The notes under the pieces: model-generated
Databases searched by the model: none
The model's input: the letters and a program-made list of their open reading frames with translations, nothing else
What the model was told of the DNA's origin: nothing
Translations under genes and position numbers: made by a program
Source: Halorussus litoreus
Lineage (GTDB): Archaea > Halobacteriota > Halobacteria > Halobacteriales > Haladaptataceae
NCBI RefSeq assembly: GCF_003382685.1
Contig: NZ_KZ859503.1
Location: 34,181 to 98,180 of the forward strand
Reading direction: 5' to 3'
Length of the DNA stretch: 64,000 bases
Shown here: one piece after another, positions 7,840-55,745 of the stretch
How the letters are laid out: each line of letters begins with the position of its first letter
Numbering within the stretch: position 1 is the first letter of the stretch

Positions 7840-8017
7840 TCGTCCCACCCCGCTTCGCTTGCCGGACTCATATGGTCGAAACTCCGTGCGTACGCTTCAA
7901 GAGCGTTTCCCTTCCAACTCGGACGGTACTCGATTGAAGTCGTGAGAAAATCCCTTCCTGTCCTCGAAACGTGTAAACGCTTGGAGCTGACTGCTCGTAG
8001 AGATGCAGTTTCTTTTC

Positions 8018-8190
8018 CGAAAGCCCCCGGTCGCTCGCGGTCGCTCAGCGGGATATCTGGCGCGCGCAGTGCTGCGCTCGCCGTCAGAGGCAAGCTCTGA
8101 CGAGCCTGTGCTCGCTTCGCTCGCGCAGACGCCAGATAGTGGCCGCGCTGAGACGACTGAACTGAACGCGAGCGACCGGCCCCTTTCAGT
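8018..8190. repeat. imperfect long inverted repeat enclosing a two-hairpin unit
   Basis: The left arm (8018-8062, containing ccggtcgctcgcg and atctggcg) is complementary to the right arm (8131-8190, containing cgccagat and cgcgagcgaccgg), with a few unpaired insertions. The enclosed centre carries the 51-nt unit at 8083-8133. No transposase or terminal duplication was seen. Confidence 0.65.
8083..8133 (+). repeat. two-hairpin unit, copy 1
   Basis: Hairpin 1 is gtcagag / ctctgac (7-bp stem, loop gcaag, 8083-8101). Linker gagcct is at 8102-8107. Hairpin 2 (gtgctcgcttcgctcgcgc, 8108-8126) has an outer stem, a symmetrical tc/tc internal loop, a 2-bp inner stem and a ttc loop. The tail agacgcc is at 8127-8133. 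Linkers, ttc loop and internal loop are shared with the copies at 40591, 53978 and 54028, while stem bases differ but mostly stay paired. Confidence 0.8.
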
Positions 8191-8242
8191 CCCACCCGAT
8201 AGCTTGCGTCACCGAGTGATTCCGGAGAAAGAGTCACCTGCC

Positions 8243-37226: not shown

Positions 37227-37329
37227 GTCCGGGAGCTAACTGCGGCCGCCGAATCTTCTCACGACGTTTTCGAGTCGACCAGTGCGTACGCTTGATTCAC
37301 CTTCCACTCCGGCGCGTGCTGGCGCGAGT

Positions 37330-37627
37330 TCATCTCGCGCCAAATCGCGCGAGGGCTGAGGACCGCAGGCCGGAGGCCGAGGACCGCAAGCGGTTGGGGA
37401 GGACGAGGTTGTCGCGGTGCGGTCGCAGTGCTGTGCGGTTTCTCATATGCCTCGGGAATAGCTAGCTTCACCCCAACGAAATCGGAAATCAGAAGCTCAG
37501 TGGAGCTAGCTACTGCCTCGACATATGAGAACCGCAACCGCTACAGCGAGCCTCACACCTCCCCAGCCTCCTCACTCCCTCGCTGCGCTCGGTCGTTCGT
37601 CCCTCGCGCGCGTTGCTCGCGCGCGCC
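37330..37627. repeat. large palindromic element, copy A
   Basis: An imperfect ~300-bp inverted repeat. The inner arms are cggtttctcatatgcctcgg at 37437 and the matching run ending at 37534, flanking a core with agctagcttcac and gagctagctactgc. The outer arms contain ggttgggga (left) and ctccccagcctcctca (right) plus gcgcgcg ends. It shares layout and core with copies B and C. No coding potential and no transposase; it resembles a MITE-like structured repeat. Confidence 0.8.
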
Positions 37628-39996: not shown

Positions 39997-40824
39997 TCAC
40001 CTCTCGTCCAGTACCACGGGGACCCCACGACCTGCTACGTCTGCCGCGAACGCACCCGAATCCGTCTGCAGCGCCTCGAAGGTGTTGTAGTGTATCGGCA
40101 ACACGAGGTCGGGGTCCAACTCGGCGGCGAGGTCGGCGGCCTCGTGGCGATCCATCGTGAACGACCCGCCGATGGGTGGGCAGAACAGCGAAACGTCGAG
40201 CTCCGCGTGGCCCGGCAAGGCGTCGGTGTCGCCCGGCCAGAACACCGTCACGTCCTCGACCGCGCCGCCGGAAGTTCGACCCGGAAGCGTGACGTGGAAG
40301 CCGACGCCGAAGCCTTCGGGGTGGAACGGCTCGCCGTCGGCACTCGTGTGTGGGCCGTCTGGTTCGTTGTAGGCCGGGACGGTCCGGACCACCACGTCGC
40401 CGAACAGCCGGTCGTCGGCTTCGTCCACGCGGACGACCTCGAACGGCAGGTCGTCGAGGCTCCCGCCTTCGCGGTCGATCTTCGGCGGGTACACCGCCTC
40501 GTAGACGACCACGGTAGCGTCCTCGCCGGCGACTCGACGGATATCGTCCGAATCGTAGTGATGGTCGTGGGTCACCAGTACGAGGTCGGCGTCGGACCCG
40601 CGGTCCGACGAGCCTCCGCTCGCTTCGCTTGCGGAGACGCCGTCCTCTGGCCAGTAGTCCCGCGGTTCGGGATGGCCCGCGCCCGGCGAGTCCGGCGTCC
40701 ACTCGCCCGTGAGGGTGCCGTACCGGCCGGGGTCGAGGTAGACCACCGTGCCGTCGCCCGATTCGAGGCGCAGTCCCGCGTAGCCGAGCCACTCCGCGGT
40801 GATGCCGTCGTGTCGAATCGTCAT
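39997..40824 (-). CDS. MBL-fold metallo-hydrolase (UlaG-like)
   Basis: A 275-residue metallo-beta-lactamase fold protein. The metal motif is VTHDHHYDSDD (His86, His88, Asp90-region, preceded by a hydrophobic strand). Later ligands are in FWPGDTDALPGH and VLPIHYNTFEAL. This set matches UlaG-type or related hydrolases that act on phosphate or lactone substrates; specificity is unknown. Residues 62-78 (GVSASEASGGSSDRGSD) come entirely from an inserted 51-nt two-hairpin repeat lying between an early loop and the strand before the metal motif, and the frame is kept. Confidence 0.85.
   Translation of the reverse strand: MTIRHDGITAEWLGYAGLRLESGDGTVVYLDPGRYGTLTGEWTPDSPGAGHPEPRDYWPEDGVSASEASGGSSDRGSDADLVLVTHDHHYDSDDIRRVAGEDATVVVYEAVYPPKIDREGGSLDDLPFEVVRVDEADDRLFGDVVVRTVPAYNEPDGPHTSADGEPFHPEGFGVGFHVTLPGRTSGGAVEDVTVFWPGDTDALPGHAELDVSLFCPPIGGSFTMDRHEAADLAAELDPDLVLPIHYNTFEALQTDSGAFAADVAGRGVPVVLDER
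40591..40641 (+). repeat. two-hairpin unit, copy 4, in frame inside the MBL gene
   Basis: Hairpin 1 is gtcggacccgcggtccgac (40591-40609, stem gtcgga / tccgac). Linker gagcct is at 40610-40615. Hairpin 2 is ccgctcgcttcgcttgcgg (40616-40634) with the same ttc loop and internal-loop geometry as the other copies. Tail agacgcc is at 40635-40641. The unit is 51 nt, exactly 17 codons, and on the minus strand it is read as Gly/Ser/Asp-rich sequence. Confidence 0.85.
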
Positions 40825-40891: not shown

Positions 40892-40970
40892 GATGCGGCG
40901 CTTCTCCCTCCAATTCCGGTGCGGCGCTTCTTCCCTCCAATCCGGTGCGACCGTTCCTCATTCAATCTCG
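40892..40970 (+). repeat. tandem repeat, ~26-bp unit, three degenerate copies
   Basis: Units 40892-40918, 40919-40944 and 40945-40970 follow the pattern gtgcggcgcttcttccctcc then aatccg. The third is the most diverged. They end where palindromic element B begins. Confidence 0.75.
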
Positions 40971-41236
40971 GCGCGCGCGCGAGACGAACGACCGAGCGCA
41001 GCGAGGGAGAGGAGGCTGGGGAGGAGGAGGTTGCAGTGCGGTCACGCCGAGGCGCAAGCAGTAGCTAGTTTCACAGTCTCGATAGAAAACGAAGTTACCG
41101 TGAAGCTAGCTACTGCCGAAGCATATGAGAGACCGCACAGCACCGCGACCGCACAGCAACGCGACCGTACCGCAACCGCGAGCCTCACGCCTCCCCAGCC
41201 TCCTCGCTCGCTACGCTCACTCGTCCCTCGCACGCT
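40971..41236. repeat. large palindromic element, copy B
   Basis: The clearest copy. The core arms gcagtagctagtttcac (41058-41074) and gtgaagctagctactgc (41100-41116) are reverse complements with one change, around a 25-bp AT-rich loop. The outer arms pair ggaggctggggagg (left, ~41010) with cctccccagcctcct (right, ~41190), and gcgagggagaggagg with its complement. The ends are gcgcgcgcg-rich. Three A/C-rich accgc repeats lie in the right arm only. Confidence 0.85.
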
Positions 41237-41334
41237 AGGGCGCGGCGCGTTCGTGCGCCGCGCCCAAACGCGCGCCAAGTGTGGACTGATGAGATCAATC
41301 CGAAGACGCCATCCAGAGCGACGATCAGACCCAA

Positions 41335-52049: not shown

Positions 52050-53546
52050 ATGGCGGCTTTCGAACTGCCGCCGTGGATGGCGCTCGCGCCGGCGCTCACG
52101 TTCGCGCTGACAGCGCTGGTGCTGTTCGTCGTCGACAGCATCGATCCCGACTCGGAGAACCGGACGCTCGTGGCCGGAACCGCGACGCTCGGTTCGCTGG
52201 CCGCAGCTGGCTTCGCGGTCTGGTACCTGTTTGCCGGCACCGGCGAGGAACCCATCGTGCTGTTCGGCGACGCGCTCGTCGTCGACTCGATGAGCCTGTT
52301 CTTCGCCGTCGTGTTCGCCAGCGTGACCACGCTGGTCTGTGTCGCCAGCTACGACTACATGGCCGACCACCACTATCAGGGCGAGTTCTACGCGCTCGTG
52401 ATGCTGGCGGCGACGGGCATGACGATCATGCCCTCGGCCAACAGCCTCGCGATCGTGTTCGTGAGCCTCGAACTGTCGAGCCTGCCGTCGTACGCGCTGG
52501 TCGCCATCCTCAAGAAGAACCGCGGCAGCGTCGAGGCGGGCCTGAAGTACTTCCTCGTCGGCGCGCTGTCGTCGGCCATCCTCGTGTACGGCATCAGTCT
52601 CGTGTACGGCGTCACCGGGTCGCTGTTGCTCCCGGAGGTCGCTAGCGGGATCGCCGGAACCGAACTCAACGGCGTGCTCGGCGTCGGCATGCTCATGATC
52701 ATCGGCGGGTTCGCGTTCAAGACCGCGAGCGTGCCGTTCCACTTCTGGGCACCCGAGGCCTACGAGGGCGCGCCCGCGCCCGTCTCGGCGTTCCTCTCGT
52801 CGGCCTCGAAGGCCGCCGGGTTCGCCGTGGCGTTCCGCGTGCTCACGGTCGGCTTCCCCATCCAGGAGGTCGTGGTCGGCGCGACCGCGAGCGTCGACTG
52901 GGTGCTCGCCGCACAGATCCTCGCGGTGGCGACGATGACGCTCGGTAACTTCGCCGCCGCCACCCAGGATACCGTCAAGCGGATGCTCGCGTACTCCTCT
53001 ATCGGTCACGCCGGCTACGCCCTCATCGGACTGGCCGCGCTGACCGGCGGCAACGACCAGATGGTGCTCGGTGCCAGTATGGCCCACCTGCTCGTCTACG
53101 GGTTCATGAACACCGGCGCGTTCCTGTTCATCGCGCTCGCCGAGCACTGGTCGGTCGGCCGGACGTTCGAGGACTACAACGGTCTCGCGTCGCAGGCGCC
53201 GTTCGCCTGCGTCGCGATGACCGTGTTCCTGTTCAGCCTCGCGGGCCTCCCGCCGTTCGGCGGCTTCCTGAGCAAGTACCTGCTGTTCGCGGGTGCCATC
53301 GGCGCCGGCTTCTGGTGGCTCGCCGCCGTGGGTGCCATCAACAGCGCGCTGTCGCTGTACTACTACTCGCGGGTCGTGAAGGCGATGTGGATCGAGGAGC
53401 CGACCGGCGACTTCGACATCGAGTCCCGACCGGTCGGCATCTACGCCGCGCTGGCTGCGGCCGCGATCATGACGGTGCTGCTCCTGCCCGGCTTCGGTCC
53501 GGTCTGGGAGTACGCCACCGGTGCCGCGGCGGCGCTCGGCGCGTAA
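52050..53546 (+). CDS. nuoN: NADH-quinone oxidoreductase-like subunit N
   Basis: A 498-residue antiporter-like subunit, the last gene of the operon. Landmarks are SLELSSLPSYALVAILKKNR, VPFHFWAPEAYEGAPAPVSA, MLAYSSIGHAGYALIGLAAL and FSLAGLPPFGGFLSKY. It starts directly after the nuoM stop. The operon ends here, followed by repeats rather than nuoEFG. Confidence 0.96.
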   Translation: MAAFELPPWMALAPALTFALTALVLFVVDSIDPDSENRTLVAGTATLGSLAAAGFAVWYLFAGTGEEPIVLFGDALVVDSMSLFFAVVFASVTTLVCVASYDYMADHHYQGEFYALVMLAATGMTIMPSANSLAIVFVSLELSSLPSYALVAILKKNRGSVEAGLKYFLVGALSSAILVYGISLVYGVTGSLLLPEVASGIAGTELNGVLGVGMLMIIGGFAFKTASVPFHFWAPEAYEGAPAPVSAFLSSASKAAGFAVAFRVLTVGFPIQEVVVGATASVDWVLAAQILAVATMTLGNFAAATQDTVKRMLAYSSIGHAGYALIGLAALTGGNDQMVLGASMAHLLVYGFMNTGAFLFIALAEHWSVGRTFEDYNGLASQAPFACVAMTVFLFSLAGLPPFGGFLSKYLLFAGAIGAGFWWLAAVGAINSALSLYYYSRVVKAMWIEEPTGDFDIESRPVGIYAALAAAAIMTVLLLPGFGPVWEYATGAAAALGA

Positions 53547-53661: not shown

Positions 53662-53930
53662 ACCGGCGCGCGCGTTGCTCGCGCGCGAGGGATGAGCAAC
53701 GCAGGCCGAATGCCGAGTAGCGCAAGAGGCTGGGGAGGTTTGAGGCCCGGTGCTGTGCCGCTGCGGTCTCTCCGATGCCTCGGCAATAGCTAGCTTCGTG
53801 CTGATTTTGACCGCGACGAGTGAGATAGCTACTGCTTGAGCCTCGGAGAATCCGCACAGCACGGCACCACACCGCACCGCGACCGCAACAGCGGGCTTTC
53901 AGACCGCCCCAGCCTCGGCGGTCACATAAA
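53662..53930. repeat. large palindromic element, copy C
   Basis: The core left arm is atagctagcttcg (53786-53798) and the core right arm is gatagctactgcttgag (53824-53840). The flanking arms are gcggtctctccgatgcctcgg and cctcggagaatccgc. The outer arms pair gaggctggggagg (left) with ccgccccagcctcgg (right). More degenerate than copies A and B. Confidence 0.75.
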
Positions 53931-53977
53931 CGCGAGCGCCTCCCTCGCGCGATGTGGCGCGACACGGAGGTCGCGCC

Positions 53978-54078
53978 GTCAGCGCACGCGCTGACGAGCC
54001 TCGACTCGTTTCACTCGTCGAGATGCCGTGGGAGCGACGTTCCCACAAGCCTGCGCTCGGTTCCCTCGCACAGACGCC
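53978..54078 (+). repeat. two-hairpin units, copies 2 and 3, head to tail
   Basis: Copy 2 (53978-54027): hairpin gtcagcg / cgctgac, linker gagcct, hairpin cgactcgtttcactcgtcg, tail agatgcc. Copy 3 (54028-54078): hairpin gtggga / tcccac, linker aagcct, hairpin gcgctcggttccctcgcac, tail agacgcc. The two copies abut with no spacer. Stem bases differ between copies in a largely compensated way. Confidence 0.85.
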
Positions 54079-54254
54079 AGCACGCGTCGGAAGCAAGGAC
54101 GAGCCAGCACGAGTCAGAGGGAGAGTCAGCAAGCGCACCGACCCGAATACTAGTATCGAGCGAAACCACCTATAAATCGGGCTCTCACGCCGGGTTTCGA
54201 TGATAAACGGTAGACGGTAGACTTTAGGCCGAGCGGCAGAAATCGCGGGTTAGA

Positions 54255-55745
54255 ATGGTCTCGCGGCTCGTGCTGGGCTGTGGAACGGTGGGCCAGAACC
54301 TCGTGGAGGCGATTACCGACCGTCCCGGCAGACTCGTGGTCGTGGACGACGCCGAGAGCCGCATCGAGGCACTCCGCGACGAGAAGGTGTCGGCCAGCCA
54401 CGGGGACCCCACCGAGCGCGAGAGCGTGGCCGGGAGCGTCGAGGACGTAGACGTGGTCGTCGTGGCCGGCGACGACGCGGCCGCGAACTGCCGGGCGACC
54501 GAACTCGCGGCCGACCTCTATCCCGACGCGTACATTCTCGCCTACACCGGAAAGAACCCTACCGACGACCAGCGGTTCGTGCTCTCGGCCACCGCCGACC
54601 GGGTTATCGACCCGACCGACACGGTGGCCGAGCAGGTGCTGACCGCCGCGCTGGGCGAGTACGCGTTCCGAACCGCCACCCTCCGGCGGGTGCTCCGGAG
54701 CATCGACGGGACGCTGGCGGTGTTCATGCACGACAACCCCGACCCCGACGCCATCGCGAGCGCGGTCGCGCTGTGTCGCATCGCCGAGGAGTTGGACGTC
54801 GACGCGCAAGCCTGCTACTTCGGCGAGATCTCCCACCAGGAGAACCGGGCGTTCGTGAACCTGCTCGACCTCGAACTCCGGAACGTCGAGGCCGGGCCCG
54901 ACCTCGACCTCTCGGAGTTCGGCGGCATCGCGCTGGTCGACCACTCGCGGCCGGGCGTCAACGACCAGCTTCCCGAGGACACCCCAGTCGACGTGGTGGT
55001 CGACCACCACCCGCCGAAAGAGCCGCCCGAGGCCCGGTTCGTCGATTTGCGGAGCGACGTGGGCGCGACCTCGACGCTACTGGCCGAGCACACTCAGCGA
55101 CTCGGCGTCGAGCTGACCGAGGACGTGGCGACCGCCCTGCTGTACGGCATCCGAGTCGACACCAAGGACTTCGCGCGCGAGGTCTCGACCGCCGACTTCG
55201 AGGCCGCCGCGATCCTCCTTCCCCTCGCCGACGTGGCGACGCTGGAGCGGGTCGAGAGCCCCTCGGTGTCCGCGGACACGTTCGAGACCATCGCGCGGGC
55301 TATCCGGAACCGCCGGGTCGAGGGCACCGTGCTGGCCTCCTGCGTCGGGAAGCTGGCAGACCGGGACGCCTTGGCGCAGGCGGCCGACCAGTTGCTCGCG
55401 ATGGAGGACGTGTCGACCACGCTCGTGTACGGCTTCCGGGACGGCACCGTGTTCGTGTCGGCCCGCGCGCGGGCGACCGACGTCGACCTCGGCGAGACGA
55501 TGCGGGCCGCGTTCGACCAGATCGGCAGCGCGGGCGGCCACGCCGACATGGCTGGTGCTCAGATTCCCCTCGGACTGCTCGGCGAGGTCGAGGCCGAGGA
55601 GGAGGCGTCGCTGACAACCGTCGTCAGCGAGGTCGTCACCGACCGCTTCTTCGAGACCATCCGCTCGACGCCCGGGTCCGACGCCAGCTACTCACACGGC
55701 GGCGACGCGAACTTCGACGGGACGGTCGTCGAACCCGAGGACTGA
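54255..55745 (+). CDS. RCK-DHH-DHHA1 phosphoesterase
   Basis: A 496-residue fusion. Residues 1-130 form a TrkA-N/RCK Rossmann domain (VLGCGTVGQNLVEAI; VVDDAESRIEALRDEKV). Residues ~150-330 form a DHH domain with HDNPDPDA near residue 159 and the signature Asp250-His251-His252 (VVVDHHPPKE). Residues ~400-460 form DHHA1 (RAAFDQIGSAGGHADMAGAQ). DHH-DHHA1 enzymes cleave nanoRNA, pAp or cyclic dinucleotides. The RCK domain suggests control by NAD(H) or a cyclic nucleotide, and a link to potassium homeostasis is plausible. The 3' end is tandemly duplicated. Confidence 0.88.
   Translation: MVSRLVLGCGTVGQNLVEAITDRPGRLVVVDDAESRIEALRDEKVSASHGDPTERESVAGSVEDVDVVVVAGDDAAANCRATELAADLYPDAYILAYTGKNPTDDQRFVLSATADRVIDPTDTVAEQVLTAALGEYAFRTATLRRVLRSIDGTLAVFMHDNPDPDAIASAVALCRIAEELDVDAQACYFGEISHQENRAFVNLLDLELRNVEAGPDLDLSEFGGIALVDHSRPGVNDQLPEDTPVDVVVDHHPPKEPPEARFVDLRSDVGATSTLLAEHTQRLGVELTEDVATALLYGIRVDTKDFAREVSTADFEAAAILLPLADVATLERVESPSVSADTFETIARAIRNRRVEGTVLASCVGKLADRDALAQAADQLLAMEDVSTTLVYGFRDGTVFVSARARATDVDLGETMRAAFDQIGSAGGHADMAGAQIPLGLLGEVEAEEEASLTTVVSEVVTDRFFETIRSTPGSDASYSHGGDANFDGTVVEPED

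Follow-up and report, generated by a model that had tools for sequence, protein, structure and literature searches.

The window, a stretch of 64,000 nucleotides from the Halorussus litoreus genome, carries between positions 53,978 and 54,078 two copies of a short structured repeat unit that follow each other head to tail, as the sequence-only reading had described and as we confirmed. The pair occupies the spacer between a gene for an NADH-quinone-oxidoreductase/antiporter-type subunit (52050–53546, nuoN-like) and a TrkA-N/DHH/DHHA1 gene (54255–55745). This spacer measures 711 bp in the host genome versus 112–650 bp in 16 other Halorussus in which both flanking genes could be placed. None of these 16 has a unit there; their spacers contain arms of the mosaic described below in some cases and lack the mosaic in others. 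Directly upstream of the TrkA-N/DHH/DHHA1 gene, a AGACGGTAGACTTTAGGCCGCGCAACAGAAAGCGCGG-like leader is kept in nearly all Halorussus orthologues, also in those whose remaining spacer differs, and is possibly a promoter or a 5′ leader structure. Two further units lie elsewhere in the window, and an alignment recovered all four with the positions and anatomy reported earlier (Table 1). Three things had been overlooked: the copy at 40591 is intragenic, copies in genes share one frame and orientation, and the tandem pair sits inside a larger palindromic mosaic.

Table 1. Repeat units, mosaic elements and host gene in the window (positions are those of the window).
Feature	Positions	Strand	Remarks
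Intergenic unit in a different composite hairpin element	8083–8133	+	sequence and genome match
Unit-free junction	37309–37341	−	GGCGCGAGATGAACTCGCGCC joined straight to AGCACGCGCCGG
Second mosaic element, without unit	37309–37627		
Host gene of the insert at 40591	39997–40824	−	275-aa metallo-beta-lactamase-fold hydrolase; PF13483, E=9.8e-17; 13-row protein alignment
Intragenic unit	40591–40641	+	51-nt in-frame insert; minus-strand reading is VSASEASGGSSDRGSDA
Third mosaic element, without unit	40966–41275		
Whole palindromic mosaic element	53663–54090		centre 53795–53823; outward arms begin GCTAGCTACTGC-like; ends CGCGCCGG/CGCGTCGG
H0 hairpin, GGCGCGAC..GTCGCGCC	53956–53977	+	directly precedes the tandem units; insertion context
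Tandem unit 1	53978–54027	+	H1 53978–53995, linker GAGC, H2 54000–54022, tail ATGCC; genome match C3:88176
Tandem unit 2	54028–54078	+	H1 54028–54046, linker AAGC, H2 54051–54073, tail ACGCC; genome match C3:88227

The class-wide consensus of the unit is RCC-[H1]-GAGC-[CT NNN C TC G N TTC N C TC G NNN AG]-ACNCC. The first hairpin (H1) varies in length, mostly between 16 and 25 nt, and the whole unit measures ~46–57 bp. The second hairpin (H2) is built of a stem, a TC/TC internal loop, a 2-bp inner stem and a 3-nt loop, an order already proposed from the window copies and found to hold across the class. Across copies, TC/TC in the internal loop and the linkers GAGC and ACNCC hardly vary. TC/TC was retained in ~50 of the 52 best genome matches (≤1 mismatch) in a search that left the internal loop free, so the search pattern does not impose it. 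Two details of the earlier description needed revision. H2 had been given as 19 nt preceded by a gagcct or aagcct linker; the linker core GAGC/AAGC stands, but the CT (5′) and AG (3′) beside H2 pair with each other and extend the outer stem. The loop had been called fixed as TTC, which is true of all four window copies, but other copies have TCC, GTC, TGC and others. The outermost T-A pair of H2 is replaced by C-G, G-C or A-T in other copies. One copy (G000:C38:5902–5933) has its inner hairpin inverted, with GAGCGGAGCGAG in place of CTCGCTCCGCTC, as template-switch inversion predicts.

The wider search suggested by the sequence-only reading was carried out with a sequence pattern, and it established that the units are not coincidental. 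In the host genome (3.84 Mb, 75 contigs), the core pattern at ≤3 mismatches gave 77 matches and its reversed control 0, counts that rest on the pattern and so miss diverged copies. With the internal loop left free, there were 80 matches, compared with 13 for the reversed pattern. Among 194 evenly drawn haloarchaeal genomes from 65 genera, 74 genomes and 32 genera have at least one match. Most genomes hold 0–12 copies, against about 74–77 in the H. litoreus host. The genera among the matches listed include Halorussus, Halococcus, Haloferax, Haloarcula, Halosimplex and Halostella, along with Haloarchaeobius, Natrialba, Natribaculum, Natrarchaeobius, Halomarina and Salinibaculum; none of the non-archaeal matches inspected among those listed folds into the hairpins. 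Eight haloarchaeal plasmid records match the pattern, and 0 copies were found in IMG/VR (exact pattern) or in GenBank phages. Rfam 15 gave 0 matches in the window. Open-access full text contained no earlier description of the unit, of its peptide or of a haloarchaeal in-frame repeat; a prior report in the subscription literature is possible. In several genera, units seemingly adjoin the 5′ end of a tRNA gene (L017, L059, L065, L072, L102), by eye a tRNA-Gly-like gene on the other strand, which would place these units in the pre-tRNA leader.

The stems covary while the linkers stay fixed, as had been noted for the four window copies. In 125 distinct cores, the variable H2 stem columns pair in 79–94% of cases, whereas shuffling leaves 46–50% for the three outer NNN pairs. 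When each genus or lineage contributed a single sequence (n = 33), mean pairing over five pairs is 0.90 versus 0.63, the top of 300 shuffles being 0.72. The covariation of H2 is thus real, also at one sequence per genus. The strand that folds is probably the complementary one. It gains two base pairs and has a GAA loop and tandem GA/GA mismatches, its RNA fold is more stable, and its RNA folding z-score reaches −3.3. We favour this strand because of its two extra pairs, GA/GA mismatches and GNA-type loops, which are the only pointers; G-U wobble in the variable stems favours neither strand (20 versus 26). The GCGAAGC motif is unusually stable, and the inner part of the unit's complementary strand looks alike. 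Mini-hairpins of this sequence have been used for stabilising DNA aptamers (PMC4686876). Stability of the GCGAAGC type may be relevant to the unit.

The mosaics, which have many copies genome-wide, share a variable centre, GCTAGCTACTGC arms and hairpin ends. In the one at 53663–54090, the two arms point outward; behind their GCTAGCTACTGC starts come blocks of the CCGCACAGCACC and CCTCCCCAGCCTC types, then hairpins and CGCGCCGG-type ends. One such mosaic has 74 BLAST matches genome-wide, its arm blocks occurring as inverted pairs. Beyond the mosaic end on the 3′ side, many mosaics have short imperfect tandem repeats, CCAGCGCACGCCGAGTGGAAAGA (in L018 after 1532, for example). In the filled junction, ...CGCGCC is followed by the unit and then by AGCACGCGCCGG. 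The empty junction, ...CTCACGCC joined to AGCGCGCGCCGG, is present in L255, with an equal form in L249 and L254, and empty junctions also exist within the host genome (L025) and at 37309–37341 of the window. In all of these cases, the H0 hairpin ends where the empty junction lies. The unit at 8083 has another home, a composite hairpin element at ~8012–8196 (CCGAAAGCCCCCG ... CCCCTTTCAGTCCCACC); the host genome carries this element once more at C12:19981 (L004), and a relative lacking the unit lies in the nuoN-like spacer of another Halorussus (L243).

The intragenic copy in the metallo-beta-lactamase-fold gene is a clean in-frame insert of 17 codons, and exactly these codons are missing in 16 of 16 alignable Halorussus orthologues. 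The empty site reads GAG GAC GGC GAC CTC and the filled site GAG GAC GGC GTC TCC ... TCC GAC GCC GAC CTC. One example of the insert peptide stretch from Halorussus is ...YWPEDGVSASEASGGSSDR. The AlphaFold model of the host protein is of low confidence, its mean pLDDT of 43 being too low to place the insert loop. Searching the PDB with the insert peptide returned no meaningful match.

Copies inside other genes follow a strict rule. All 24 haloarchaeal copies flanked by coding sequence on both sides have the same orientation, are in register and share the same phase. For this test, the reading frames of both flanks were picked independently of the unit, and a 25th match (L132) was left out as a chance pattern match with unpaired stems. 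The 24 copies are spread over ~13 gene families, and for one of six readings to be taken by chance in each of these families would be vanishingly rare. Their product is GVSAS-[E/D/G/A]-ASGGS, to which H1 adds a stretch rich in Ser, Asp and Gly. In coding copies, H1 is 16, 19, 25 or 31 nt long, all 1 mod 3, whereas lengths in non-coding copies are mixed; this comparison is to some extent circular, since coding copies were recognised by means of the element's own frame, and the value of 30 for L041 is a mis-measured 16. The H2 stem TCCG/CGGA, which yields Ser and Gly codons, occurs in 16/28 coding copies versus 6/118 non-coding ones. Together, the single frame and the codon-favouring stems imply that protein-level selection acts as a filter on intragenic copies; the pairing of the hairpins persists in coding and non-coding copies alike.

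The hosts identified by Pfam are GatB/Yqey-domain proteins (GatE), MetG, ETF (EtfA), archaeal helicase (Hel308), HMG-CoA reductase, TsaD/Kae1, cobalamin-independent methionine synthase, AMP-binding acetyl-CoA synthetase (Acs), HhH-GPD glycosylase and ATP-dependent DNA ligase. Further hosts, outside the Pfam result, are presumably BirA, ScpA and beta-CASP proteins, names we assigned by reading the sequences. In GatE, an empty GAC GGC GTC GAC contrasts with a filled GAC GGC GTC-[insert]-GAC GGC GTC GAT. For GatE and HMG-CoA reductase alike, the insert is found in few lineages and is missing from the great majority, and the comparisons include the worn remnants GVAVSDSSGGPSDG (L226) and GEVSASGDSSERSSDG (L181). 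Two more in-frame copies lie in annotated plasmid genes for an S9 peptidase and an FAD-dependent oxidoreductase (CDSs WP_253484632.1 and WP_318570887.1). A Haloferax BirA-like gene (L075, L087, L115) has a single in-frame unit or relic, or two in succession, and species differ in this respect. Insertion sites kept across genera, as in HMG-CoA reductase, EtfA, MetG and Kae1, could represent old inherited inserts rather than repeated mobility.

These results lead us to regard the unit as probably a non-autonomous palindromic mobile element of haloarchaea that has coding potential and works in the manner of Rickettsia palindromic elements (RPEs). The unit is an insertion: precise filled and empty orthologous sites exist in the metallo-beta-lactamase-fold gene, GatE, HMG-CoA reductase and the nuoN-like spacer. 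The suggestion of a small mobile or amplifying structured element, already made from the window copies, draws support from this presence and absence in orthologues, the tandem copies, the class-wide spread and the covariation. CC flanks the unit on the left in 106/124 copies and on the right in 118/124, and the flanking bases common to both ends stop there. Single examples had suggested a 3-nt target duplication; overall, the data lend it no support, the outer trinucleotides being identical in only 7/25 coding cases.

As we envisage it, the unit would insert right behind an RCC trinucleotide, so that CC stands at either end, and tandem copies grow at its own tail, which can serve as the next target. 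In intergenic mosaics, it would land behind the H0 hairpin. An enzyme acting in trans would recognise the hairpins in single-stranded form, probably on the strand with the GA tandem and GAA loop, and move the units. In genes, the one orientation and phase that persist encode Gly-Val-Ser-Ala-Ser-x-Ala-Ser-Gly-Gly-Ser, a flexible, acidic linker that ends close to a Gly codon, and purifying selection against harmful frames may have produced the 24/24 pattern. The host genome has no Y1 transposase (PF01797), and over the 194 genomes the presence of the unit is unrelated to that of Y1 (49/25/83/37; Fisher p = 0.75). Tentatively, we extend this proposal to a haloarchaea-wide element that may spread by an undescribed, non-Y1, hairpin-recognising insertion and may repeatedly have supplied acidic Ser/Gly/Asp linkers to essential proteins, among them MetG, GatE, HMG-CoA reductase and DNA ligase.

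Matched stems could also arise without any dedicated mobility, if replication template switching (quasipalindrome correction) and local recombination made and kept the hairpins and the covariation were a mutational by-product. The stems are indeed near-perfect palindromes with fast compensatory change, which speaks for such a process, and the frequent tandem copies, the inverted inner hairpin at C38:5902 and the failure to find a mobilising enzyme, whether as a Y1 gene in the host or as an association over the 194 genomes, agree with it as well. Palindrome correction should, however, erase the TC/TC internal loop, yet TC/TC, GAGC and ACNCC are near-invariant with the loop left free in the search. 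The presence of the whole unit at unrelated loci of many genera and the single clean gain of 51 nt also argue against this explanation, which we consider unlikely, and template switching likely contributes to keeping the stems matched.

That the units are copied for a function in transcripts, as a structured RNA element such as a processing site, an RNA-binding-protein site or a regulatory hairpin pair, seems to us quite improbable. The stems covary, and the strongly folding complementary strand is the mRNA strand in the gene copies, both in keeping with an RNA element, but the unit is missing from most orthologues of each gene examined in detail, most genomes have few copies compared with ~75 in the host, and no Rfam match was obtained. 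Moreover, the folding strand is antisense to both genes flanking the spacer at 53978. A recurring binding or processing site had been offered in the sequence-only reading as well, and we found no supporting evidence for it. We give very little credence to a REP/REPIN-like element whose mobilising Y1 (RAYT-type) transposase has been lost from the host or operates from elsewhere. Such elements likewise combine small palindromes with short conserved unpaired tags in tandem and mosaic arrays, and many members of the class have Y1 genes (132/194 genomes); against this, the genome richest in units lacks a Y1 gene, units and Y1 do not co-occur, and there is no GTAG tag. Mobilisation by a Y1/RAYT enzyme resident in the host is excluded by the lack of PF01797 and the Fisher test over the 194 genomes.

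The small palindromic mobile element that we favour has its closest counterpart in the RPEs (Ogata et al., 2000), described as transposase-less small palindromic repeats found in intergenic regions and in-frame within conserved protein genes (PMC2229807, PMC10969869). Like RPEs, the unit is a repeated palindrome at unrelated sites with in-frame inserts missing from orthologues, which makes it a member of the same functional class. By contrast, it is ~50 bp long, has two separate hairpins, is archaeal and class-wide, and uses one peptide frame. RPEs are given there as 105–146 bp, mainly with one long stem-loop (PMC2229807); the size and two-hairpin architecture of the unit rule out membership in the RPE sequence family. 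The same source mentions, for Methanocaldococcus jannaschii, palindromic repeats that have become part of protein genes (Suyama et al., 2005; PMC2229807). Both are archaeal and gene-fused; those repeats were reported from a single methanogen and not from haloarchaea.

Among tagged palindromes, CGTC-tagged REPs are short, have no associated transposase, are in part intragenic and include RPE-4 and RPE-6 (PMC3733652). They occur in bacterial phyla and have uninterrupted stems of 8–9 bp starting with A-T, loops of 4–5 nt and a CCA tail (PMC3733652), so the TC/TC internal loop, 3-nt loop and other ends of the unit rule out this assignment. BIME/REPIN modules with RAYT transposases combine into larger mosaics (PMC2817692, PMC3116915). 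Mosaic-building is common to the palindromic intergenic elements here, but the units are arranged head to tail, not as inverted pairs, and a GTAG REP/REPIN with RAYT is ruled out by the host without a Y1/RAYT gene and the missing association over 194 genomes. PATEs are longer than the unit and tied to IS families. The haloarchaeal MITEs/PATEs of Haloquadratum are described as non-autonomous palindrome-bearing elements (PMC3119063). They are not known as in-frame inserts, whereas the shorter unit occurs in-frame in genes. Measured against MITEs, the ends of the unit share CC alone and it has no terminal inverted repeats.

The units make it possible to ask what moves transposase-less palindromic repeats, and at what rate mobile DNA yields new protein loops and whether these are neutral or useful in salt-adapted proteins. 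They also carry a warning for annotation: where haloarchaeal proteins show GVSASxASGGS, the stretch stems from inserted DNA and is not a conserved domain. To our knowledge, in-frame invasion of essential genes by small palindromes was formerly a curiosity of Rickettsia and of one methanogen report. Compared with those cases, the family described here ranges across an entire class of archaea that can be cultured and, in part, manipulated genetically; both filled and empty sites are available, the frame rule is strict, and one genome alone has >70 copies.
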